A DNA stretch of 53,631 nucleotides from Pseudomonadota bacterium (GCA_021798115.1 JAJZYM010000011.1:1-53631), one strand, 5' to 3'; positions 1 to 34,333 are shown, counted from the first letter of the stretch. Notes: generated from the sequence alone by a model not told the origin. A program made the numbers and translations.

Positions 1-467
1 ACGTTGAAGGCGAGACCGTGGTAACTGGCCCCGCGCCGAACACGGAGCCCGAGGGAGGCGATTTTGGCCTCCCCGACATAGACGCCGGGGGCCCCCCGAC
101 GGCGGTGGCCGGCGACACCGTAGGAAGAGAGAGTTTTCAGCACCGCCTCCTCGAGAAGCGCCACGAGCCCCTGGGGCCCGAGGCCCCGTCGGCGGAGATC
201 GAGGAGGGTGTAGGCGACGATCTGACCGGGCCCGTGGTAGGTGACCTGGCCCCCGCGGTCGACCGCCACGACCTCGATCGTGCCCGGATCGAGAACGTGT
301 TCCCGCCGGCCGTTCAAGCCGAGGGTGTAGACGGGATCGTGCTCCACGTACCAGATCTCGTCGGGGGTTTCCGCCGTCCGCTCCTCGGTGAAGCGGCGCA
401 TGGCCTCCCAGACGGGGCGGTAACTCCGCCGTCCGAGATCACGTTCGACGAGCGCCGGGGGGCTCAT
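1..467 (-). CDS. lipB: Octanoyltransferase LipB, partial (C-terminus outside window)
   Basis: Transfers octanoyl from acyl carrier protein to lipoyl domains of 2-oxoacid dehydrogenases, the first step of lipoate assembly in the cytoplasm. I read it by reverse complement: ATG at 467-465, then 155 codons to the window edge. The LipB signature [12 protein letters not shown] (residues 71-82) and the [16 protein letters not shown] block, with the catalytic Lys at residue 135, are visible. The catalytic Cys of the family lies beyond the edge. The start codon shares an ATGA overlap with the stop of the transaminase gene upstream, so it is the last visible member of the cell-wall operon. The small ybeD gene that often sits just before lipB is absent. 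Confidence 0.95.
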
Positions 468-7401: not shown

Positions 7402-7872
7402 TCACAGCAGCAGGCGGCCGCGGGGGGCAAGCCGCAGGAGGAGGTTCTGCGCGAGCGGCCAGAGGAGTGCGGTCACGAGCGGTGGAAGGAAGACGCCCGG
7501 AGACCAAAGCGGCACCGCCGTCAGCCAGACTTCGAGGAGGCGCTCGGCGGTGAAGAGCAAGAAAAAAACGGCCATCTGCTGGCCCAAGGGCGCAAGGCGG
7601 ATTTCGAGACGCCAACGTTCGACCACGTAGGCTAGGACCGCCAGGATCGCCGCGTGTTCACCGAGAGGGGTGAGATGCACGACGTCGTCGAGGAGTCCGG
7701 TCGCCCAGGCGGTCACGATGCCCACCCGTTCGGGCAGGACGAGGATCCAGAAGAAGAGGACGAGCGGGACCCAGAGCGGCGCCCAGGGCGCGAGCGAGCG
7801 CGGCCAGGGCAGCGAGGCCAGAACGAGCGCGGCCGCCAGGCTGAGATAGGGGGCGAGGCGTTCGCGTCTCAT
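7402..7872 (-). CDS. mreD: Rod shape-determining protein MreD
   Basis: An inner-membrane component of the elongasome, 156 residues, almost wholly hydrophobic with about five membrane segments. It is identified by size, topology and position between mreC and mrdA. Sequence conservation in this family is low, but the WVPLVLFFWILVLPERVG and DDVVHLTPLGEHA blocks fit. Its ATG overlaps the mreC stop (ATGA). Confidence 0.92.
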   Translation of the reverse strand: MRRERLAPYLSLAAALVLASLPWPRSLAPWAPLWVPLVLFFWILVLPERVGIVTAWATGLLDDVVHLTPLGEHAAILAVLAYVVERWRLEIRLAPLGQQMAVFFLLFTAERLLEVWLTAVPLWSPGVFLPPLVTALLWPLAQNLLLRLAPRGRLLL

Positions 7873-8774
7873 CGGGGTCCGGAGCCCGGTGTGCGCGGAC
7901 GGGGAGCCGCCGGATGCGCACGGTGCTGGGCGGCCCGCGGGAGAAGGACCAGGGCGTCGCGATCGCGCAGGGGTTGGGCCAGGGGGCGCGCCCGGATGCG
8001 TGCGAACGTGTAGGCCGGCGCGGGGATCACCCGGGTCACCACCGCTACGGGGTAGCCCGAGGGGTAGGTCCCGCCCACGCCCGAGGTGACGAGAAGATCA
8101 CCCCGGCGGATGTCGGTTCCGTTCGGGACGAAGGGCAGCTCGAGCCGGTCGAGGCGTCCCGTGCCCTCGGCGAAGGTGAGGACGTGGCTGCGCAGGTCCT
8201 CGACCGGAGTGAGCGAGCGGCGCGTCACGAGAAGCCGGACGAGGGCGCTGTGGGGACGGACGACGCTCAGCACTCCGAGGAGACCGTGGGGATCGACCAC
8301 CGGGAAACCGTGGCGGAGTCCCGCCGTACGGCCGCGGGCGAGGAGCATGCGCGGCGGGTAGGGATCGTGGGGGAGCGTGAGGATGGGGACGACGAGGGTG
8401 CGGCGGCCGAGCCGTTGGCGAAGACCGAGGAGACGGCGAAGACGGATGTTGCGAGCGATCAAGGCACGATCCGCGGCCAGGCGCACGCGGAGGGAAAGGA
8501 GATGTCGCTCGAGCCTCCGCACGCGGGTGGCGAGGCGCGTGTGCGGCTCGAGGGCCAGGGTCCAGTCCCGCCCTTCGTGCGCGAGGCCGCTCCAGGTTCG
8601 CAAGAGCGGGGCGGCGAGAGCGGTCTCGGCAGAAACGAACGCACCGCGCCAGTGCGTCCAGCGGGCCACCCCGAGAAGCACAAACGAGGCCGCGAGACAC
8701 AGGGCGAGGCGTGCGGCCCGGTACGGCTGGTGGTGGGAGGAAAACCCGGCGCCCCGGGACGCACGAGGGGCCAC
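7869..8774 (-). CDS. mreC: Rod shape-determining protein MreC
   Basis: A bitopic inner-membrane protein of 301 residues whose periplasmic part activates PBP2-RodA. A membrane helix lies at about residues 20-40, a coiled coil at about 80-115, and a beta-rich domain with VVDPHGLLGVLSVVRPHSALVRLL and VTSGVGGTYPSGYPVAVV follows. The start is GTG, 12 bases after the mreB stop. A Pro/Arg-rich tail ends the protein. The periplasmic part is notably Arg-rich. Confidence 0.95.
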   Translation of the reverse strand: MAPRASRGAGFSSHHQPYRAARLALCLAASFVLLGVARWTHWRGAFVSAETALAAPLLRTWSGLAHEGRDWTLALEPHTRLATRVRRLERHLLSLRVRLAADRALIARNIRLRRLLGLRQRLGRRTLVVPILTLPHDPYPPRMLLARGRTAGLRHGFPVVDPHGLLGVLSVVRPHSALVRLLVTRRSLTPVEDLRSHVLTFAEGTGRLDRLELPFVPNGTDIRRGDLLVTSGVGGTYPSGYPVAVVTRVIPAPAYTFARIRARPLAQPLRDRDALVLLPRAAQHRAHPAAPRPRTPGSGPR

Positions 8775-16084: not shown

Positions 16085-17482
16085 GTGGCGAGGTACACGA
16101 GCCTTCTCGAGCTCATCGGCCGTACCCCGGTGCTCGCGCTCGACGGTTTTGAGACCGGCGCAAGCCGCGTGTTCCTCAAACTCGAGTCGTCCAACCCCGG
16201 CGGATCGATCAAGGATCGGATCGCCCTGCAGATGATCGAGGGTGCCGAACGCCGCGGGCGCCTGCGTCCGGGCGCCTGGATCGTCGAGGGAACGGCGGGC
16301 AATACCGGCATCGCCCTGGCTCTCGTGGCCCTTCTCCGCGGGTATCGTCTGCTCCTCGTCGTCCCGGACAAGATGAGCGCCGAGAAGATCGCCCAGCTCC
16401 GGGCGATGGGCGCCGAGGTCGTCCTGACCCGCTCGGACGTCACCCGCGGCCATCCCGACTATTACCTCGATCTGGCGAAGCGTCTCGCCGAGGAACGCGG
16501 GGGCTATTTCATCGACCAGTTCGGCAACCCCGACAACCCGGCCGCGCACGAGGCCACGACGGGTCCGGAGATCTGGGAGGAATTCGGCACCGAACTCGAC
16601 GTGCTCGTGGTGGGGGCCGGCACGAGTGGAACGCTCACGGGCCTGGGCCGCTACCTCAAGTCCCGCCACCGCGGCCTGCGCATCGTCCTGGCCGATCCGG
16701 AGGGATCGGTCCTCGCCGGCTACCACCGAAGCGGGCGTGTGGGCCCCTCCGGCCGCTGGTTGGTGGAAGGCATCGGCGAGGATTACTTGCCGTCGATCAG
16801 TGATTTTTCTCTTGTCGACGAGGTGATCACGGTCGGTGATGCCGAGGCTTTCCGCACCGCCCGCGAGCTTCTTCTGCGGACCGGGGTGGCGGCCGGTTCC
16901 TCGACGGGGGTGCTGCTTGCCGCCGCGCTGCGCGCGGCCCGTGCCTCGCCCCGTCCCGCGACGGTCCTGACCTTCGTCTGCGATCAAGGGACCCGCTACC
17001 TCACCAAGGTTTACGACCCGCGCTGGCTCGCCCGTCACGGGCTTGACGATCGTGACGATCGTGGCGATCTCCGCGATTGCCTGCCCGCCGACGATCTCGT
17101 GGTTTCCGCGGGCCGCATCGGCGCGGAGACGACGGGGGAAGCCGCGCTGAAACGTTTGCGCGATCTCAGGCTCGAGGCCCTTCTCGTGCGGGCGGAAGAG
17201 GGGGCCGCGGACGGTCTTCTCCTCGAAGAGGATCTTCTCCGTCTCGCGACCGAGGCCCCGCAGGGACTCGAGGCCCCCGTGGCTTCGGTCGTCCGTCGTG
17301 ATCCCCCGAAGCTTGCGGTCTCCGAGCCCGAGGCTTCCCTTCTGGCGCTTCTCCGTGCCGTCCCCGCGGTCGTCCTGGTCGATCCCGTCTCGGGGCAGTC
17401 GCTCGGAGTGGCCACGCGGACGAGCGCCCTCGATCGGCTGGAACGCCGACGCCGGCTCGCGGCCCGGAGCATGCGGCCGTGA
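16085..17482 (+). CDS. Cystathionine beta-synthase with C-terminal CBS-domain pair
   Basis: Condenses homocysteine with serine to cystathionine (forward step of reverse transsulfuration). It is 465 residues. The PLP enzyme core covers about 1-310, with Schiff-base Lys43 (GGSIKDR), the EGTAGNTGIALAL phosphate/substrate loop, and GAGTSGTLTG. A tail of about 130 residues (roughly 330-460) looks like a degenerate pair of CBS regulatory domains. Cysteine synthase CysM is the main alternative, but the tail, the EGTAGNTG loop and the partner lyase favour beta-synthase. The start is GTG with GGAG nine bases upstream. Its stop overlaps the lyase GTG. Confidence 0.88.
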   Translation: MARYTSLLELIGRTPVLALDGFETGASRVFLKLESSNPGGSIKDRIALQMIEGAERRGRLRPGAWIVEGTAGNTGIALALVALLRGYRLLLVVPDKMSAEKIAQLRAMGAEVVLTRSDVTRGHPDYYLDLAKRLAEERGGYFIDQFGNPDNPAAHEATTGPEIWEEFGTELDVLVVGAGTSGTLTGLGRYLKSRHRGLRIVLADPEGSVLAGYHRSGRVGPSGRWLVEGIGEDYLPSISDFSLVDEVITVGDAEAFRTARELLLRTGVAAGSSTGVLLAAALRAARASPRPATVLTFVCDQGTRYLTKVYDPRWLARHGLDDRDDRGDLRDCLPADDLVVSAGRIGAETTGEAALKRLRDLRLEALLVRAEEGAADGLLLEEDLLRLATEAPQGLEAPVASVVRRDPPKLAVSEPEASLLALLRAVPAVVLVDPVSGQSLGVATRTSALDRLERRRRLAARSMRP

Positions 17483-18663
17483 GCGACGACTCCTCCCGCC
17501 CCCCGGAGCAGGGGTTTTCCACCCGTGCGGTGCACGCCGGCCAGGAGCCGGATCCTGTCACCGGGGCGGTGATGACGCCCATCTACGCCACCTCCACCTA
17601 CGCCCAGCCCCGCCCGGCGGAACACCGCGGCTACGAGTACGCACGCACCGCCAACCCGACGCGCGGCGCCTATGAGCGCTGTGTCGCCGCCCTCGAGGGC
17701 GGCCGCGGGGCGATCGCGTTTGCCTCCGGCATGGCGGCCATCGCGGCCGTGGTCGATCTTCTCGATCGGGGTAGCCGCATCCTGGCCGTCGACGACCTCT
17801 ACGGGGGAACGAGCCGCCTCTTCGAGCAGGTGCGGGGCCGCACCTCCGGGCTCGAGGTGGATTACTCGCCCCTTGCGGGCGAGGACCCCGAGACCCTGCT
17901 CCGGCCGAACACACGGCTTCTCTGGATCGAGACGCCCACGAACCCGCTCCTCAAACTGGTCGATCTTCGCCGCTGGACGGACTGGGCGCACGCCCGCGGG
18001 CTTCTCGTGGTGGTCGACAACACCTTTGCCACGCCGTGGGCGCAAACCCCCCTCGCGCTCGGCGCCGACCTCGTCGTCCATTCCGTCACGAAGTACCTGA
18101 ACGGGCATTCGGACCTCGTGGGGGGCGTGGTGGTGGTCGCTCCCGCACGCGCGGACCTCGAGGAACGGCTCCGCTATCTTCAGAACGCCGTGGGCGCGGT
18201 GCCGAGTCCGTTCGATTCGTTCCTCGTGCTCCGGGGACTGAAAACACTCGCCGTCCGCATGGAGCGTCACACGTCCCAGGCTCTCGCCCTGGCCCGCTGG
18301 CTCGAGAGCCGGCCCGAGGTCACCCGTGTGTTCTATCCGGGTCTTCTGTCCCATCCGGACCACGTCCTGGCGCGCCGGCAGATGCGCGCCTACGGAGGTA
18401 TGATCACGTTTGTCCTGCGCGGCGGCGGCGAGGCGGCCCGGGCGTTCCTCGCTCATCTTCGTCTCGTCACCCTGGCGGAGAGTCTGGGCGGCGTCGAGAG
18501 CCTGGCCGAGCATCCGGCGAGCATGACGCACGCGGCGCTCACGCCCGAGCGCCGTCAGGCCCTCGGCATCGACGACGGGCTCGTCCGGCTCTCCGTCGGC
18601 ATCGAGGATCTCGAGGACCTGCGCGCGGATCTCGAGAACGCCCTGGCCGCCGCCACCCCGTAA
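17479..18663 (+). CDS. Cystathionine gamma-lyase / gamma-synthase family PLP enzyme
   Basis: A Cys/Met-metabolism PLP enzyme of 394 residues. The Schiff-base Lys205 is in SVTKYLNGHSD, the cofactor contact in FASGMAAI, and the SLGGVESLAEHPASMTHA block near the C-terminus. The Glu in that block is common in gamma-lyases. With the beta-synthase upstream (GTGA overlap), gamma-lyase activity, cystathionine to cysteine plus 2-oxobutyrate, is the likely role. Gamma-synthase (MetB) or methionine gamma-lyase cannot be excluded by sequence alone. Confidence 0.9.
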   Translation: MSDDSSRPPEQGFSTRAVHAGQEPDPVTGAVMTPIYATSTYAQPRPAEHRGYEYARTANPTRGAYERCVAALEGGRGAIAFASGMAAIAAVVDLLDRGSRILAVDDLYGGTSRLFEQVRGRTSGLEVDYSPLAGEDPETLLRPNTRLLWIETPTNPLLKLVDLRRWTDWAHARGLLVVVDNTFATPWAQTPLALGADLVVHSVTKYLNGHSDLVGGVVVVAPARADLEERLRYLQNAVGAVPSPFDSFLVLRGLKTLAVRMERHTSQALALARWLESRPEVTRVFYPGLLSHPDHVLARRQMRAYGGMITFVLRGGGEAARAFLAHLRLVTLAESLGGVESLAEHPASMTHAALTPERRQALGIDDGLVRLSVGIEDLEDLRADLENALAAATP

Positions 18664-19484: not shown

Positions 19485-19697
19485 TCAGCCCTTGGAGCCG
19501 GACATAGTCTTGGACGAGCCCATCTTGGTCATGGCCTTGGGAGCCTTCATGACGGTGCTGGCCTTGGGGGCAGGCACGGTCATCATGGCCGGAGCCGCGG
19601 GCTTCATGGTCTTGCTCTTCGGAGCCTGGCTTTTGCTGCCACAGGCCGCCAGGGCGAGTACCATGACCCCCGCCGCGAGCAGAGCTGCCTTTTTCAT
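19485..19697 (-). CDS. Small Lys/Met-rich lipoprotein, unknown function
   Basis: A 70-residue protein with a textbook lipoprotein signal peptide: MKK n-region, Ala/Leu/Val core, lipobox LAAC with Cys19. The 52-residue mature part is unstructured-looking low complexity. It has 10 Lys, 7 Met and many Ala/Pro/Ser/Thr, with no Asp, Glu, Arg, His or aromatic residue. In a genome that strongly prefers Arg, the absence of Arg is striking. The gene has its own strong signals: AGGAGG seven bases before the ATG, a near-consensus promoter and an intrinsic terminator, all suggesting high expression. Size and abundance signals recall Lpp-type or other small envelope lipoproteins, but there is no recognisable homology. 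Confidence 0.85.
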   Translation of the reverse strand: MKKAALLAAGVMVLALAACGSKSQAPKSKTMKPAAPAMMTVPAPKASTVMKAPKAMTKMGSSKTMSGSKG

Positions 19698-19844: not shown

Positions 19845-20825
19845 ATGATGACCCCTTCCTTTCCGAACAGCGGCCCGGACCGCGGATGCGTGAAGACCGG
19901 GACGGTCCTCGCCCGTGCCTTCGTCGCCTACGGGGCAGATTTCCCGGCGCTCTTCGCCCTTGCCTTCGCCGGGGCGCTCGTCGCGGTCGTCGCGGGACGC
20001 GTCTCGGGCACGGTTCCCTTGCTGCCATGGATCGTTCTGACCTTCGTCGCGGCGTTGTTCAACGCCTGGATCATTCGCCGCCTCGACCGCGGCGTGATGG
20101 CCAGGGGTGCGAGGGGTTTCGGAGCGCGGGTCGCGGTGTATGGTCTTTCGGTGATCGTGCTGGATGTGGCGGCCGCGGCGGCGCTCCTTCTGGGAGGGAT
20201 TGCGGGCGCGCTTCTTGCGCTGCTCGTTCACGCGCTCGGTTCCCTTCTGGGTCTCCCGGCGCCCGCCCTGACCGGCTTGAGTGTCTTTGCTTTCCTTCTT
20301 GTGCCCGCTCTCCTCCTCGTCGTGATCAGCATGGGAGGGGTCTTCGTCGGGTTCACCTCGGTCCTCGCGGGCGAGGATCTTGCGGGGACGTTGCGCGCGA
20401 GTTTTCGTCTTGTTCGCTGTCACTGGAAGCTCGTCGGCGCCGTGACGACCCTCACCTACGGAGCGCTCTTCCTCGTTGCGATCGTCAAGGGCTCCGTCTC
20501 GTTGTTCTATACGTTCCACCGGATCGTCGTCGCCGGCATCGCCCCCGTTTCGTCCAGCCTGGCCGAGTCGGTCCGCCGTCTTCTCGGATCGTGGTGGCAA
20601 AAATTTCCCCATACGCGCGCCGCCCCGCCCCTCTGGATCTGGCTCGCGGCCCCGCTCCTCGGGGCTCTCCCGCGTCCTTGGGCGCTGGCCGCAAGCCACG
20701 TGATCTACGCCGTGGACGGTGGAGACGAGGCGCCCGTCCCCCCCGCGGCCTGGGCCGGTGCCCGCGGGAGTGCGGCGAAAGCGCCGGACAACGTTCCTGA
20801 ATCCCGAGGTCTCCGCGTACGATGA
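19845..20825 (+). CDS. Multi-pass membrane protein, unknown function
   Basis: A 326-residue protein with about five to six hydrophobic segments, roughly residues 31-52, 57-77, 96-128, 138-172, 196-225 and one near 265. Between them lies an amphipathic RASFRLVRCHWKLVG segment reminiscent of YciC-like or related inner-membrane proteins. I do not recognise a characterised family. ATG 19845 follows GAGG by ten bases; a GTG at 19890 is a possible later start. The gene is divergent from the small lipoprotein. Its stop overlaps the ATG of the fusion enzyme (ATGA), so the two are translationally coupled. Confidence 0.8.
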   Translation: MMTPSFPNSGPDRGCVKTGTVLARAFVAYGADFPALFALAFAGALVAVVAGRVSGTVPLLPWIVLTFVAALFNAWIIRRLDRGVMARGARGFGARVAVYGLSVIVLDVAAAAALLLGGIAGALLALLVHALGSLLGLPAPALTGLSVFAFLLVPALLLVVISMGGVFVGFTSVLAGEDLAGTLRASFRLVRCHWKLVGAVTTLTYGALFLVAIVKGSVSLFYTFHRIVVAGIAPVSSSLAESVRRLLGSWWQKFPHTRAAPPLWIWLAAPLLGALPRPWALAASHVIYAVDGGDEAPVPPAAWAGARGSAAKAPDNVPESRGLRVR

Positions 20826-22384
20826 GTCACTCTCACGATTCCTCACCCTTGGCTCCTCCGGAAACGATCGGTTTCGTGGGTCTCGGGCGCATGGGCGCCG
20901 CCATGGCGCATCGGCTCCACGAAGCCGGTTACCGGCTCGTCGTCTACAACCGTGATCGGGAGAAGGCCGCTCCCCTCGTGGCCGCCGGTGCCCGGCTCGC
21001 ACGTGACTTTGGTGATTTCGCCTCCGTGCCCTGCGTCGTGACCATGCTGGCCGACGATCGTGCGGTCGCCTCGCTCGTCCTGGAACCCGGAGGTCTCGCC
21101 GACCGCATGGCGGAGGGGGCGGTCCACGTCGAGGCGAGCACGATCGGTGTTGCGCTCTCGCGCCGACTGGACGAAGAGCACCGCCGCCGTGGGCAAGGCT
21201 ACGTGGCCGCGCCGGTTCTCGGCCGGCCCGAGGCCGCCCGGGCGGGCGAGCTCGTGGTCCTCGCGGGCGGCGTGCCCGCTCTGTGTGCCCGTCTCGTGCG
21301 GGTCTTCACGGCTTACGGGCGCAAGACCTTCGAAGTCTCCGACGAACCCGCCCGCGCCCACCTGGCCAAGCTGGCCGCCAACTTTCTCATCGCCAGCGTT
21401 CTCGAGTCCCTTGGGGAATCCTTCGCCCTCTCCGCCGCCGGCGGGCTCGAGCCCGCCCGTTTCCTGGATCTTCTCACGGGCAGTCTCTTCGACGTCCCGC
21501 TCTACCGGAACTACGGGCGCCTCATCGCCGAAGGCCGTCACCGTCCGGCGGGCTTCGCCGCGCCCCTGGGCCTCAAGGATCTTCGCCTCGTCCTGGCTGC
21601 CGCCGACGAGTGCGGTGTTCCTCTTCCTCTCGCCAGTCTTCTTCGCGACCGCTTTCTCTCCCTCGTGGCCCGCCACGGCCCGGATGTGGACTGGTCGGCC
21701 CTCGGGGCTCTGGCGCGCGAGGATGCGGGGCTCCCTCCGGCGTCGCCGCAGGCCTCGCCGACGTCCTCTGGGGAGGAGTGGGACCGGCGGTTTTCCGGCG
21801 GGGAGTGGCATTACGGGCGGGATCCGAGCCCGTTCCTGGTGCACGCCGTCCGTCATCTCCCCCCCGGTGGCCGGATCCTTTCCGTCGCCGACGGCGAGGG
21901 TCGCCACGGCGTGTGGCTGGCCGCTCAGGGGTTTCGGGTCGTCACCTTCGATGCTTCGACCGCGGCCGTGGCCAAGGCGCACCGTCTGGCCGAAGAGGCG
22001 GGCGTCCGTCTCGAGATCCACCGGGCGCGGCTCGACGAATGGCCCTTCACCCCCGCCGAGATGGACGGGGTCGTGGCGCTTTACGTGCAGTTTGCCGGAC
22101 CCGAGGAGCGCCGCCGACTCTTTGCCGGCATCTGGCGCACGCTCCGTCCGGGCGGTGTGTTCGTGCTCCGCGGCTTCTCGCACCGTCAGCTCGGGCGGAC
22201 GAGCGGGGGGCCTCAGGATCCCGACCGTCTCTACACGCCCGAACTCGTCCGTGCGCTCTTTCCGCCCGAGACCGAATGGATCCTCCTCGAAGAACATGAG
22301 GAAGAGATCGCCGACGGCGTGGGGCACCGCGGGGCGGCGGTGCTCGTCGACGCCGTGGGGCGAAAACCCGCATCATCCGTCTGA
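20822..22384 (+). CDS. Fusion of beta-hydroxyacid dehydrogenase and class I methyltransferase
   Basis: A 520-residue cytoplasmic protein with two enzymes in one frame. Residues about 14-300 form a 3-hydroxyisobutyrate-dehydrogenase-type NAD(P) enzyme: Rossmann loop GFVGLGRMG (17-25), AAPVLGRPEAARAGELVV in place of the usual APVSGG block, and catalytic-position Lys183 and Asn187 in KLAANF. The usual Gly-rich lead-in to that Lys is replaced by PARAHLAK. After a Pro/Ser linker (about 301-318) comes a TehB-like SAM methyltransferase (319-520) with motif I LSVADGEGRHGVWLAAQG. The frame is continuous with no stop; a GTG preceded by GGGGAGGA at the junction (near 21778) might allow separate translation of the second domain. 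Substrates are unknown. It is coupled to the membrane-protein gene upstream. Confidence 0.88.
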   Translation: MSHSHDSSPLAPPETIGFVGLGRMGAAMAHRLHEAGYRLVVYNRDREKAAPLVAAGARLARDFGDFASVPCVVTMLADDRAVASLVLEPGGLADRMAEGAVHVEASTIGVALSRRLDEEHRRRGQGYVAAPVLGRPEAARAGELVVLAGGVPALCARLVRVFTAYGRKTFEVSDEPARAHLAKLAANFLIASVLESLGESFALSAAGGLEPARFLDLLTGSLFDVPLYRNYGRLIAEGRHRPAGFAAPLGLKDLRLVLAAADECGVPLPLASLLRDRFLSLVARHGPDVDWSALGALAREDAGLPPASPQASPTSSGEEWDRRFSGGEWHYGRDPSPFLVHAVRHLPPGGRILSVADGEGRHGVWLAAQGFRVVTFDASTAAVAKAHRLAEEAGVRLEIHRARLDEWPFTPAEMDGVVALYVQFAGPEERRRLFAGIWRTLRPGGVFVLRGFSHRQLGRTSGGPQDPDRLYTPELVRALFPPETEWILLEEHEEEIADGVGHRGAAVLVDAVGRKPASSV

Positions 22385-22390
22385 GCCCGC

Positions 22391-23365
22391 GTGGACGAGA
22401 CGGGCTCTCTCGACGAAGCGTGGGCCCGTTACTGGCGGTCCAACCGGCTGGCGTCCTGCGGCGGCGAGGGCGGTCGACCGTACCAGCCGGCGATCGTCGC
22501 GCACTGGGACGGTCTTCTCGATACCCTGCCGTCGCCGGTCCGGCTCCTCGACCTCTGCTGCGGCAACGGGGCCCTTGCGCTCCATGCCCTGCGACGTCTG
22601 CGTGCACGCGGGGTGACGGCCGTGGTGACGGCGGTCGACCGCGCCCCGATCGATCCCGCACGTTGGCTGCCCACGGAACGGGACGATCTCGCCGCGATCC
22701 ATTTCCACGGCGGTGTTGCCGCCGAGAATCTGCCGTTTGCGGAGAACGCCTTCACGGCCGTTCTGGGCCAGTATGCCCTCGAGTACACGGACGTCGCACG
22801 GACGCTCGAGGCCTGCCGGAGGGTGCTGGCTCCGGGCGGCACACTCGCTTTCGTCCTGCACGCACGGGAAGGGATCACGGTCCGGGCGGCGGCCGCTCAG
22901 GGCGAGGCCGTTGCGCGGCTTTTCGCTCTCGGCTATTTCCCGGCCGCCGACCGGCTGGCCGCTGACGCCGGGCGCGGGGGGGCGCGGAGGGAGGAGGCCG
23001 CACGCCTCTTCGCCGCCAAGGATCGGGCGCTGGCCGCCCTGGCTTGCGGGCCTGTCGAGCCGGCCATGTACGCCAACGTGAGAGACGTGGTGCGCGATGC
23101 CCTCGCGCACCTGGGCCGCGTTCCCGTTGATGTCGTGCGCGCCAAGATTGCCGAGGTCGCCGAGCACGTGGCCGACCACGCCGCCCGCACCGGGGCCCTC
23201 CTCAGCGCCGCGCGCGGCCGCGACGAGATTCGCTCGCTCTTTGCGCCCCTGCCGTCGTGGGGCTTCCGCTTCCTCGGGGATTGCCCCGAGCCCCTTGCAG
23301 GCCCCCACGGTCTTCTCGGCTGGAGCGTTCGGCTCGTCCGGGAGGGGGCCCACGAGGGAGTGTGA
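22391..23365 (+). CDS. SAM-dependent methyltransferase, unknown substrate
   Basis: A 324-residue class I methyltransferase. The SAM-binding motif LLDLCCGNG is at 52-60, the acidic loop at AVDRAP, and LPFAENAFTAVLGQYALEY then RVLAPGGTLAFVLH complete the core. After about residue 165 comes an unusual helical extension of about 130 residues, rich in Ala/Arg/Glu, before a final WGFRFLGDCPEPL...WSVRLVRE strand pair. The start is GTG, six bases after the fusion-enzyme stop, so it is the third gene of the same operon. It is convergent with prfA. Confidence 0.82.
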   Translation: MDETGSLDEAWARYWRSNRLASCGGEGGRPYQPAIVAHWDGLLDTLPSPVRLLDLCCGNGALALHALRRLRARGVTAVVTAVDRAPIDPARWLPTERDDLAAIHFHGGVAAENLPFAENAFTAVLGQYALEYTDVARTLEACRRVLAPGGTLAFVLHAREGITVRAAAAQGEAVARLFALGYFPAADRLAADAGRGGARREEAARLFAAKDRALAALACGPVEPAMYANVRDVVRDALAHLGRVPVDVVRAKIAEVAEHVADHAARTGALLSAARGRDEIRSLFAPLPSWGFRFLGDCPEPLAGPHGLLGWSVRLVREGAHEGV

Positions 23366-25897: not shown

Positions 25898-27604
25898 ATG
25901 CCTGTCTTGACCCGGCCCCGCCTCAGGCGTTTGAGCCGCACGGGGGCGCTTTCGGCCGTGGCGCTCATCTTGTCGTTCCCTCTTGCGGCGACGCTTGCGG
26001 CCGCGCCGACGCTCCCCGACAGTGCGCTCTCCGCGCTTGGACGCGCCGCGCGCGCGGCGGCTGCTCACCACAGCCGGGCCGAGGCCCTGGCGCTCATCGA
26101 CGCGGCCGAAGACAGCGCCAATCCTGTCCTGGCGGCCCGCGCCACGCTGGTGGCCTACGCAGACCGGCGTCTGCACACGGCCCACACCGCCGCTCTTCTC
26201 TGGCGGACGCTCGCGCCCCACGACCCGCAGGCGGTCAGTTTCCTTTTCCTGACGGACGTGGCTCTCGGGCGCGACCCGCAGGGACTGCGGCGTCTGGCGG
26301 AACTCCTGCCGCCGGGCACCTCGTGGGCCGGGGAAGAGACGATGGCGACGCTCCTCATCCGGAGGCTCCCCCACATGCTGGATCTGCGCGTCGCGCAGCT
26401 CTGGGTCCACCGCCATCCCCGGGCGTCGGGTCCCCGCTATCTCCTGGGCCTGGTGGCCTTGAGGATCGGCATGAACGGGACGGCCGGCCTCGAGGCCCAG
26501 GATCTTGCGCGGCGGAAACTTCCTCTCGACCGCCGGCTCCGGGTGGGGGAACTCACGGCGCAGGCTCTCGTCTACGGGGGGCGTCCCCGCCGTGGTCTCG
26601 CGGAGGCCCGGCGACTCCTCCACACGCAACCCAAGAGTCTGCCTCTTGCCGTCAACCTGATCAGTCTTGAGCTCGTCTCGGGCCACGACCGGGCGGCGCA
26701 CGCCCTGGCCGCCCGCTGGCGCCGGACCCACCCCCATAACCTCGCCCTCTTCCTCGCGCTCACGCTCGCGGATCTTCATCGTCACCACCCGCGGCGGGCC
26801 CGACGCTGGCTCACCCGTCTTCTCGAGAGCGGTCGCGAGCAGGCCCTCACCGCCTTCAACATCGGACGTGTTGAGCTCCGGCTCCACCATTCGCAACGGG
26901 CCCGCTTCTGGTTCCGTTGGGCCGCCGCCCGCGCCGAGCGCGATGTCCCGGCGGCGGCCCTCGCGCTCGCGCGCCTGGCCGGCGAGGGCAAGGACACACG
27001 TGCCGCCCGCGCCGTCTTCCGTGACGCCGCCGCGCGCGTTCCTCTTCAGGGCCCGGCGGTGCGGCTTCTCGAGGCCCACTGGCTCGACAGCTTCCATCAC
27101 TTCCACGCCGCCCGCCGTGTGCTTGCGAAGGCGCGTGCCCTCTATCCGGACGACCCGGATCTGATCTACGCTCTCGCTCTCGCCGACATGCAGGTGGGGC
27201 ACGGAGCCCTCGGTTACCGGATGCTTCGCACGCTCGGGCGCCGCTACCCCGACAACGCCTGGATCCTCAACGCGGAGGGCTATTATCTGGCCCGCCGGAC
27301 GGGGCGGCTTGCGCGTGCGGCCCACGACATCGAGCGGGCCCTTGCGCTCGATCCCGGAGATCCGCCTCTCCTCGACAGCCGGGGCTGGGTGTCCTACCGT
27401 CGGGGGCACGACCGCCGGGCGCTTGCGCTGTTCCGCCGGGCTTACCGGCACGACCGCTCGCCGACGATCGCGCTCCATTACGGTCTGGCTCTCTGGCACA
27501 CGGGGCACCAGAACCAGGCCCGCCGACTCTGGTCCCAGGTCTACAAGCGGCACCCGCACGACCGCGCTCTCGCCGAGGCTCTCGCCCATCACGCCGGAAC
27601 CTGA
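25898..27604 (+). CDS. Tetratricopeptide-repeat periplasmic/secreted protein
   Basis: A 568-residue exported protein with a signal peptide (residues about 1-32, ending LAAA) and many TPR units over the rest. The clearest are ALYPDDPDLIYALALADMQVG, RRYPDNAWILNAEGYYLA and ALALDPGDPPLLDSRGWVSY. A TPR protein just before lolB is common in Gammaproteobacteria and is presumed to act in envelope assembly. ATG 25898 has GGGAG upstream; the open frame 12 codons further up lacks a site. It is very rich in Arg and His. The lolB GTG follows after three bases. Confidence 0.87.
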   Translation: MPVLTRPRLRRLSRTGALSAVALILSFPLAATLAAAPTLPDSALSALGRAARAAAAHHSRAEALALIDAAEDSANPVLAARATLVAYADRRLHTAHTAALLWRTLAPHDPQAVSFLFLTDVALGRDPQGLRRLAELLPPGTSWAGEETMATLLIRRLPHMLDLRVAQLWVHRHPRASGPRYLLGLVALRIGMNGTAGLEAQDLARRKLPLDRRLRVGELTAQALVYGGRPRRGLAEARRLLHTQPKSLPLAVNLISLELVSGHDRAAHALAARWRRTHPHNLALFLALTLADLHRHHPRRARRWLTRLLESGREQALTAFNIGRVELRLHHSQRARFWFRWAAARAERDVPAAALALARLAGEGKDTRAARAVFRDAAARVPLQGPAVRLLEAHWLDSFHHFHAARRVLAKARALYPDDPDLIYALALADMQVGHGALGYRMLRTLGRRYPDNAWILNAEGYYLARRTGRLARAAHDIERALALDPGDPPLLDSRGWVSYRRGHDRRALALFRRAYRHDRSPTIALHYGLALWHTGHQNQARRLWSQVYKRHPHDRALAEALAHHAGT

Positions 27605-32659: not shown

Positions 32660-34333
32660 TCAACGTGACGGGGACGGTGAATCCACCCGTTTCACCCGGC
32701 TGGGCGGGACACAGGCCACGTGGTAGAGGGTGGAATCGACCGCGCGGAGACTGAGTCCGGCGCGGTACTTGACCAGATTGCCCTGGAGCGGCACGAAGAG
32801 CACGGGGAGGTGACGCATCATGAACCGCTCGTAGGCGTAGAGGGGGGCGCGTCCCGGCTCGACGTTGGTGGCCCGGATGAGACGATCGAGGGTCGGGTTG
32901 CTGTAGTGCCCGTAGTTCGTCCCGCCGTGGGTGTTGAAAAGACCCTCGCCCGTCGGGTAGTAATCGGGTTCGTAATCCCAGGCGATCAAGGCGGCACTCC
33001 AGTGGCCGTGCGGCACCTCGAGCTTGGCCAGGAGAAGATTGAAGGGGATCTGACGGAGGCGGACGTCGACGCCGATCTTTTCCCACTCCTGCTTGATGAT
33101 GTCGGCCACGATGATCTGCGTGCGCGAGCCCGACGGGAAGAGCATCGTGAAGCGGAGGGGCACGCCGGCGCGGTTGCGCCGCACCCAGCCCCGACCCGGA
33201 CGGCGCCGCCAGCCGAGCGAGCGCAGCAGGGCACGCGCGTGGTTCGGGCGGTACATGAGGCTCGGGTGATCGGTCAGGCGACGAAGGAGCGGCGAGAGGT
33301 ACGTGGGCGGACTTCCCGGCACCGGGCTGAACCCCGGGGTCCCGAAACCGTTGAAGGCCACACGGATCATGAGTTTCTGGTTGATTGCGTACTCGAGCGC
33401 GCGGCGGAGGGCGAGCTCGTGGAAAAAGGCGACCCGCGGGTTGACGAAGTTGAGGACGATGTAGTTGATCCCGAACCCCCCGTTGGTGATGCAGCTCTTC
33501 ATGTGGCGGAGAAGACCCCGTGCGCGGTAGAGGGCGTGCGGCACATTACCGATGTCGAGATGACCCGAGCGAAGAGCCCAGAAGGCCCCCTCCGAGGAGG
33601 TGTACATGGCGTAGACGAGGCGGTGGAAATGGCCCGGAGGCCCGGAATACGCCGGGTTGCGGACGAGAACCACCTCACGCCCGAGGACGAACTTCGCGAG
33701 CCTGTAGGGGCCGTCGACGACGCGCACGAGAGACGGTTCGGTCTGCTCGTTGTAGAGCTCGTCCACGCTCAAGCCCTTCCAGGCGAAGCGGGGAAGAGCC
33801 TGGAACTGCGTCAATCCGTTGAGTTCGAACCAGTGCGGGTTGACGGGGTGATGGGTGACGACGAGGAGGCGGTGGGGTCCGAGGAGACGCACGCGGCGCA
33901 CGACCATCGGAATCCCGCCGATGCTGTAGTTGAGATACCGGGGGCCGAAGTCGCGCATGAGGGTGAACGAGTAGGCGACTTCCGCGGCGGTGATGGGGCG
34001 CCCGTCGGACCACTTCCAGTGGCGCAGGCGGATCCAGAAATGCGTGTCGTGGTCCGTGACCCGGATGCTTCGGGCGAGCGATTGCCGCCAGCGGATCGTG
34101 ATCTTGTGGCCGATCGAGAGAAGTGGCGGGTAAAGATCGGCGATGACCTGTGCGTTGCTGACCGACTGGTTGTTGACGATGGGCAGGATCGAATTGATGT
34201 TGATGGGGGCGGCGAGACCCACGTCGGTCGCCGTGCGGATCGAGGGGCGGTGGGTCGCCGTCGCCGCCGCCGTGGGGGCGGGCGTCACGAGCAGCACAAG
34301 CACCAGGATGAGCGGAATGCGACGGCGCATCAT
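32660..34333 (-). CDS. Peptide ABC transporter substrate-binding protein (SBP family 5)
   Basis: The periplasmic binding protein of the importer encoded just upstream, 557 residues with a signal peptide (MMRRR, hydrophobic core, TAAA). Family 5 landmarks are ADLYPPLLSIGHK, the FWIRLRHWKWSDGRPITAAEVAYSF block, LRRALEYAINQKLMI and QEWEKIGVDVRL. It has no lipobox. The mature protein is rich in Arg and His. Ligand class (oligopeptide, dipeptide, opine or nickel) is not readable. It is the last gene of the operon, nine bases after dppF. Confidence 0.9.
   Translation of the reverse strand: MMRRRIPLILVLVLLVTPAPTAAATATHRPSIRTATDVGLAAPININSILPIVNNQSVSNAQVIADLYPPLLSIGHKITIRWRQSLARSIRVTDHDTHFWIRLRHWKWSDGRPITAAEVAYSFTLMRDFGPRYLNYSIGGIPMVVRRVRLLGPHRLLVVTHHPVNPHWFELNGLTQFQALPRFAWKGLSVDELYNEQTEPSLVRVVDGPYRLAKFVLGREVVLVRNPAYSGPPGHFHRLVYAMYTSSEGAFWALRSGHLDIGNVPHALYRARGLLRHMKSCITNGGFGINYIVLNFVNPRVAFFHELALRRALEYAINQKLMIRVAFNGFGTPGFSPVPGSPPTYLSPLLRRLTDHPSLMYRPNHARALLRSLGWRRRPGRGWVRRNRAGVPLRFTMLFPSGSRTQIIVADIIKQEWEKIGVDVRLRQIPFNLLLAKLEVPHGHWSAALIAWDYEPDYYPTGEGLFNTHGGTNYGHYSNPTLDRLIRATNVEPGRAPLYAYERFMMRHLPVLFVPLQGNLVKYRAGLSLRAVDSTLYHVACVPPSRVKRVDSPSPSR

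Follow-up and report, generated by a model that had tools for sequence, protein, structure and literature searches.

A beta-hydroxyacid dehydrogenase fused to an Slr1183-type methyltransferase in one bacterial genus: architecture, origin and possible function

Is an open reading frame of 520 residues that joins a dehydrogenase to a methyltransferase a genuine gene, and what might its product do? The frame lies on contig JAJZYM010000011.1 of a Pseudomonadota bacterium (GCA_021798115.1), the 53,631 nucleotides of which were analyzed as a whole (hereafter the window). It is the second of three closely spaced genes that an initial annotation had proposed to form an operon without described counterpart; the three open reading frames were recovered with the extents given there (see the feature list). 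The contig belongs to a 1.88-Mb genome (97% complete, 38 contigs), and the gene content of the window (mre/rod genes, gatCAB, prfA-hemA and others; gene names by reading) looks gammaproteobacterial. As set out below, the fusion is real and known so far from one small group of bacteria that are probably acid-loving; the combination appears to be new and restricted to one genus, its parts being of known kinds and each half an ordinary enzyme type.

Architecture and reality of the fusion gene

Features of the locus (SAM, S-adenosylmethionine; pLDDT, predicted local distance difference test score; aa, amino acids):
20822..22384, + strand: fusion gene, 520 aa, N-terminal beta-hydroxyacid dehydrogenase and C-terminal class I SAM methyltransferase
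20822..21733, + strand: dehydrogenase domain, residues 1-304, GRP(D/E)AA subfamily, PDB 4gbj closest
21221..21235, + strand: GRPEA loop, residues 134-138, the subfamily's replacement of the SGG substrate loop
21368..21382, + strand: catalytic-type Lys183 (21368-21370) and Asn187 (21380-21382), invariant in the subfamily
21734..21775, + strand: interdomain linker, residues 305-318, fast evolving, pLDDT < 50 at 311-314
21776..22384, + strand: methyltransferase domain, residues 319-520, Slr1183 type, IQFA clade
21890..21904, + strand: SAM-binding motif I, D357-G-E-G-R361, invariant
22082..22102, + strand: YVQFAGP, residues 421-427, a variant of the FIQFAxP signature that marks the clade formed with genome G015 and the alphaproteobacterial plasmid and chromosomal relatives
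22391..23365, + strand: second SAM methyltransferase, 324 aa, GTG start, closely following the fusion in each of the genus's three species
22874..23260, + strand: helical lid of the second methyltransferase, residues 162-290, an insertion into its core
19845..20825, + strand: multi-pass membrane protein, 326 aa, no Pfam or NCBIfam match, sister-genus homologues weakly DUF7847

A single reading frame contains the Pfam domains NAD_binding_2 and NAD_binding_11 followed by Methyltransf_25/11. The fusion is present in three species of one genus, i.e. the source organism and the congeners G001 (95% identity, residues 1-519) and G002 (83% identity, residues 85-519; the first approximately 97 residues are located at the end of another contig), with the junction intact in both congeners. 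Both halves are under purifying selection: The ratios of nonsynonymous to synonymous substitutions (dN/dS, Nei-Gojobori method; G001/G002) amounted to 0.22/0.11 in the dehydrogenase and 0.10/0.08 in the methyltransferase half, those of the comparison genes to 0.10/0.11 (the cystathionine beta-synthase-like gene, CBS) and 0.13/0.18 (prfA), and neighbouring housekeeping genes overall ranged from 0.07 to 0.23. The 14-residue linker changed rapidly, its dN/dS not being low. The junction conserved in a frame that is continuous in two other species, the codon-level selection on both of its sides and the fast linker exclude the artefact that the initial annotation had itself considered, a stop codon near position 21770 deleted by sequencing or assembly error, which is left with practically no probability; the 520-residue fusion is genuine.

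The AlphaFold2 model of the protein comprised two confident domains (mean pLDDT 90.9) and a linker disordered at about residues 311-314. Since the predicted template modelling score (pTM) was only 0.71 and the linker disordered, no fixed interdomain interface is predicted, so that the structural calculation suggested for this interface returned the domains and not their contact; a fixed arrangement as a candidate feature was unsupported at this pTM. The two domains would be tethered flexibly, an arrangement for which a pTM of this size is expected, with separate active sites kept.

Two enzyme families and the origin of the fusion

The N-terminal half scored 124.4 bits with NAD_binding_2 and 58.7 bits with NAD_binding_11 (Pfam cut-offs 21 and 30, respectively), and its PV(F/L)GRPxxA loop, Lys183, Asn187 and position inside the subfamily in the tree assign it to the GRP(D/E)AA subfamily of beta-hydroxyacid dehydrogenases. 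Superfamily, fold and the Lys183/Asn187 pair are in common with 3-hydroxyisobutyrate dehydrogenase, tartronate semialdehyde reductase and GLYR1; it differs from these by the GRP(D/E)AA in place of the SGG loop and by scores far under the equivalog cut-offs (117.3 versus 291.6 bits for the 3-hydroxyisobutyrate dehydrogenase equivalog TIGR01692; 123.8 versus 397 bits). The label "3-hydroxyisobutyrate-dehydrogenase-type" thus holds for superfamily and domains but not for the equivalog, which was rejected. The retention of the two catalytic-type residues was borne out: K183 and N187 are, like G134-R135-P136 (14 of 14 aligned subfamily members), invariant columns, and the nucleotide-binding Gly motif is conserved. 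The Gly-rich substrate loop is indeed missing, as had been stated; however, this does not mark an unusual dehydrogenase, being the trait of a widespread subfamily whose members are scattered over many phyla (among the best 80 of 560 GTDB candidates). The best PDB match both by sequence (E 3e-60) and by fold (38% identity, TM-score 0.94 of target) was 4gbj, an NAD-binding 6-phosphogluconate dehydrogenase-like protein of Dyadobacter fermentans with a common (G/A)RPEA loop; unlike the fusion, it stands alone, with no methyltransferase, and no described function of it was found in the literature.

The C-terminal half had been regarded as TehB-like. It has the class I SAM methyltransferase fold in common with the tellurite methyltransferase TehB but fell under both TehB cut-offs (Pfam PF03848, 14.9 versus 20.4 bits; NCBIfam, 26.4 versus 218 bits) and is instead of the Slr1183 type, as indicated by whole-length similarity to PDB 2kw5 (E 1.9e-37), the DGEGR SAM motif, the GGP motif and the tree. 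Slr1183 of Synechocystis (PDB 2kw5, 3mer, 2n47) belongs to the same family end to end, including the W..RF..YG..P..FL, GEGR and GGP motifs; in contrast to the C-half, it is a stand-alone protein of another subclade, the fusion being of the QFA insertion type (the IQFA signature with one inserted residue is the mark of the clade).

In the maximum-likelihood tree, the three fusion methyltransferase domains formed a group (100/99) with alphaproteobacterial plasmid genes and G015 and were separated from the native copies of their own family (G003, G004, G007, G008); the stem of the fusion branch was long (1.16 changes per site). This placement with a plasmid clade, apart from the family's own copies, points to a putative horizontal acquisition of the C-half gene before the fusion. 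The N-half shared a group (94/97) with a partial sister-genus gene (G004), the gammaproteobacterium G286 and a Methylacidiphilaceae genome. The partial gene (L054:14601-15345) is a dehydrogenase 53% identical to the N-half at a contig end; the similarity ends abruptly at residue 143, the break lying 283 bp from the end of a contig that is possibly chimeric there.

By protein search, the fusion was found outside the genus neither in 37 genomes of relatives nor among 369 genomes of the class, and likewise not among 398 genomes of the phylum, in the best 80 of 560 confirmed GTDB candidates or on 72,556 plasmids; it was absent from the sister genera of the same family. The two halves as adjacent genes were met in no case outside the genus among the searched class, phylum, plasmid and GTDB-candidate loci, and the literature on dehydrogenase-methyltransferase fusions yielded nothing useful. 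Hence, the view that no described system has this architecture stands, none having been found across genomes, plasmids, PDB and literature, and the proposed search for the joined domains with the same neighbours returned two congeners and no other genus in the searched sets. As one element of the explanation that is tentatively preferred as a whole, the fusion may have arisen once, in the ancestor of the genus, from two unrelated and probably horizontally acquired genes.

Neighbouring genes and host

In the sister genera, the membrane gene occupies the corresponding site by itself, between the CBS, cystathionine gamma-synthase (CGS) and a hypothetical gene on one side and the convergent prfA-hemA on the other, the fusion being absent; in the source genus, the fusion and the second methyltransferase are inserted between membrane gene and prfA. 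The coupling on which the operon proposal rested is conserved in part: The ATGA overlap of membrane gene and fusion exists in the source genome only (spacing about 16 bp in G001 and approximately 75-90 bp in G002), whereas the short spacing between the fusion and the second methyltransferase is kept in the three species (6, 6 and 9 bp). Moreover, of all genes tested, the membrane gene was the least constrained (dN/dS 0.43/0.28, G001/G002). Its occurrence without the fusion and the unconserved coupling weaken the three-gene operon with a membrane partner; judged from gene order, the membrane gene is probably an older neighbour outside the pathway of the fusion.

The second methyltransferase lies in the sister genera beside ctlX, divergent from it, and the ctlX locus of the source genome lacks it; this order indicates an old family gene that apparently moved to the fusion locus. 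Its model (pLDDT 90.4) revealed a class I core with a helical lid of approximately 130 residues before the last strands. The unusual helical part noticed initially is therefore present but is a lid inserted between core strands (residues 162-290) and not an extension. In the PDB fold search, the common core alone was matched (TM-score of query about 0.3-0.45). A role in arginine or citrulline metabolism, as the ctlX neighbourhood might imply, was rejected, the gene being divergent from ctlX in the sister genera and absent from the genome's own ctlX locus. In three further families of Gammaproteobacteria, distant homologues of the second methyltransferase have TPR and TonB-receptor genes around them (L067, L068, L204).

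Further features of the window:
19485-19697, - strand: lipoprotein of 70 residues, rich in Lys, Met and Ala (MKKAALLAAGVMVLALAACGSK...), divergent from the membrane gene
16085-18663, + strand: CBS-like and CGS/lyase-like genes, 4-bp overlap, upstream
7869-8774, 25958-27604 and 32660-34333: examples of exported proteins of high isoelectric point (predicted pI 10-12)

The position of the small lipoprotein gene is conserved in the congeners and the checked sister-genus genomes. The CBS-like and CGS/lyase-like genes both remain under the equivalog cut-offs shown; their order is conserved in the family. The predicted pI of exported proteins in the window (10-12, versus 4.6-6.9 for cytoplasmic ones) forms a pattern associated with acidophiles and may point to an acidophilic host. 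The fusion protein itself has a pI of 6.5 and no sign of export.

Candidate functions of the two halves

No known substrate was found for GRP(D/E)AA dehydrogenases or Slr1183-type methyltransferases, both of which are widespread families. The neighbourhoods of N-half relatives vary, e.g. an aromatic meta-cleavage catabolic cluster in Thermus pTT27 and aldo/keto reductase and cupin genes in Azotobacter; the substrate of this half cannot be read from gene context.

At 8 of 13 annotated plasmid loci of C-half relatives, a rhodanese, sulfurtransferase, SulP, persulfide-dioxygenase-like, TauE, DsrE, TusA or ArsR gene stood next to the methyltransferase gene, in one case overlapping it by 4 bp, whereas approximately 120 features taken from other parts of three of these plasmids included no rhodanese gene. 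An operon of the sister genera (L206:9215-17918, L207:995-9708) ends with the native homologue; it encodes an ArsR-rhodanese regulator, TolC, an adaptor, an RND pump, YgaP-TM, an SQR-type flavoprotein and, last, the Slr1183-type methyltransferase. The ArsR/RND/YgaP-TM/SQR gene set is known from a description of ArsR regulators that respond to sulfane sulfur (PMC12423496). In Synechocystis, slr1183 and the rhodanese gene slr1184 are expressed together (PMC5295598). On chromosomes, TauE overlaps the methyltransferase gene by 4 bp at L262, together with a Blh-type dioxygenase and a BigR-like ArsR repressor; rhodanese, Blh and SulP genes lie near it at L276; and O-succinylhomoserine sulfhydrylase directly adjoins it in three genomes of one genus (L267, L273, L274). 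However, a sulfur marker within 6 kb was present at only 3 of 20 sampled chromosomal methyltransferase loci, L262 among them (1 of 18 controls, 0 of 35 dehydrogenase loci). In consequence, the sulfur association of the methyltransferase relatives is recurrent but not universal. The source genome also encodes an SQR-type protein; at the fusion locus itself, the sole sulfur neighbours are the CBS/CGS genes, which stand there in fusion-less sister genera as well.

The explanation that is preferred, if only tentatively, is that of a cytoplasmic two-domain enzyme in which an NAD(P)H-dependent reductase is tethered to an S-methyltransferase of sulfide or a small thiol, serving the detoxification of sulfide or reactive sulfur. 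The N-half would catalyze the NAD(P)H-dependent reduction (or oxidation) of a small aldehyde or oxo acid, presumably with a preference for NADP(H); the C-half would transfer a methyl group from SAM to sulfide or a small thiol as the Mdd enzymes do; and the protein would be made together with the second, lid-bearing methyltransferase. S-methylation is a best guess, derived from the sulfur neighbourhoods and from MddH and MddM1, published cytosolic class I SAM methyltransferases of approximately 200 residues that act on and detoxify H2S and methanethiol (PMC12904073). Of the initial proposals, detoxification of a small molecule stays plausible, while the membrane protein as a pathway partner is not supported.

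Several observations weigh against this explanation. Apart from the low chromosomal count given above, the closest relative beyond the genus, G015, lacks a sulfur context. No close relative of either half has been characterised, and the long fusion branch may reflect a change of substrate. The Mdd enzymes have no dehydrogenase fused to them and are likened to the C-half by their published description. Finally, a coupling of the two reactions is no more than a conjecture.

The flexible, fast-evolving linker and the low-confidence domain arrangement would also suit two independent enzymes of unrelated pathways that share one chain without functional meaning, as would the different origin of the halves, which are not neighbours elsewhere in the searched loci; this is nevertheless rather unlikely given that three species diverged by up to 17% in this protein have all retained the fusion, where most random fusions would have been lost or split. 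Unlikely, too, and slightly more so, are consecutive steps on a carboxylic acid, by which a (semi)aldehyde is converted to a hydroxy acid that is then esterified or O-methylated for detoxification or export of an organic acid: The catabolic clusters of the dehydrogenase relatives (Thermus pTT27 meta-cleavage; aldo/keto reductase and cupin) and a MATE-type exporter after the methyltransferase gene, on the same strand, at 4 of 20 loci of the phylum sample (L264, L265, L268, L281) are in line with it, but the halves are never side by side outside the genus in the searched loci, none of the similarities seen was to a known carboxyl methyltransferase, and the membrane gene is no dedicated partner.

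A third alternative, proposed by analogy, is that one half only is active, the dehydrogenase half chiefly providing the methyltransferase with a scaffold for oligomerisation or sensing. Beta-hydroxyacid dehydrogenases are usually dimers or tetramers, and the corresponding domain of human N-PAC/GLYR1, which is structurally similar to the N-half in the fold search, is a scaffold; yet N-PAC has lost the catalytic Lys, whereas the N-half conserves Lys183, Asn187 and the nucleotide-binding Gly motif under purifying selection, which makes such a role quite improbable. More improbable still is the most far-reaching version, in which the halves act in turn on one sulfur compound: A methylthio oxo acid or aldehyde would be reduced and the product S-methylated, a one-chain version of the reductase and S-methyltransferase steps of the dimethylsulfoniopropionate (DMSP) type that would yield a new methylated sulfur metabolite in an acidophile.

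Returning to S-methylation of sulfide or a small thiol, the recurrent sulfur neighbourhood supplies a cheap, testable prediction, namely methylation of H2S or a thiol by the C-half. The fusion ties together one member of each of two orphan families and is a useful handle on both rather than a new kind of system. If the prediction is true, an activity could be named for a common orphan methyltransferase family, which would then be a further source of methylated sulfur compounds.

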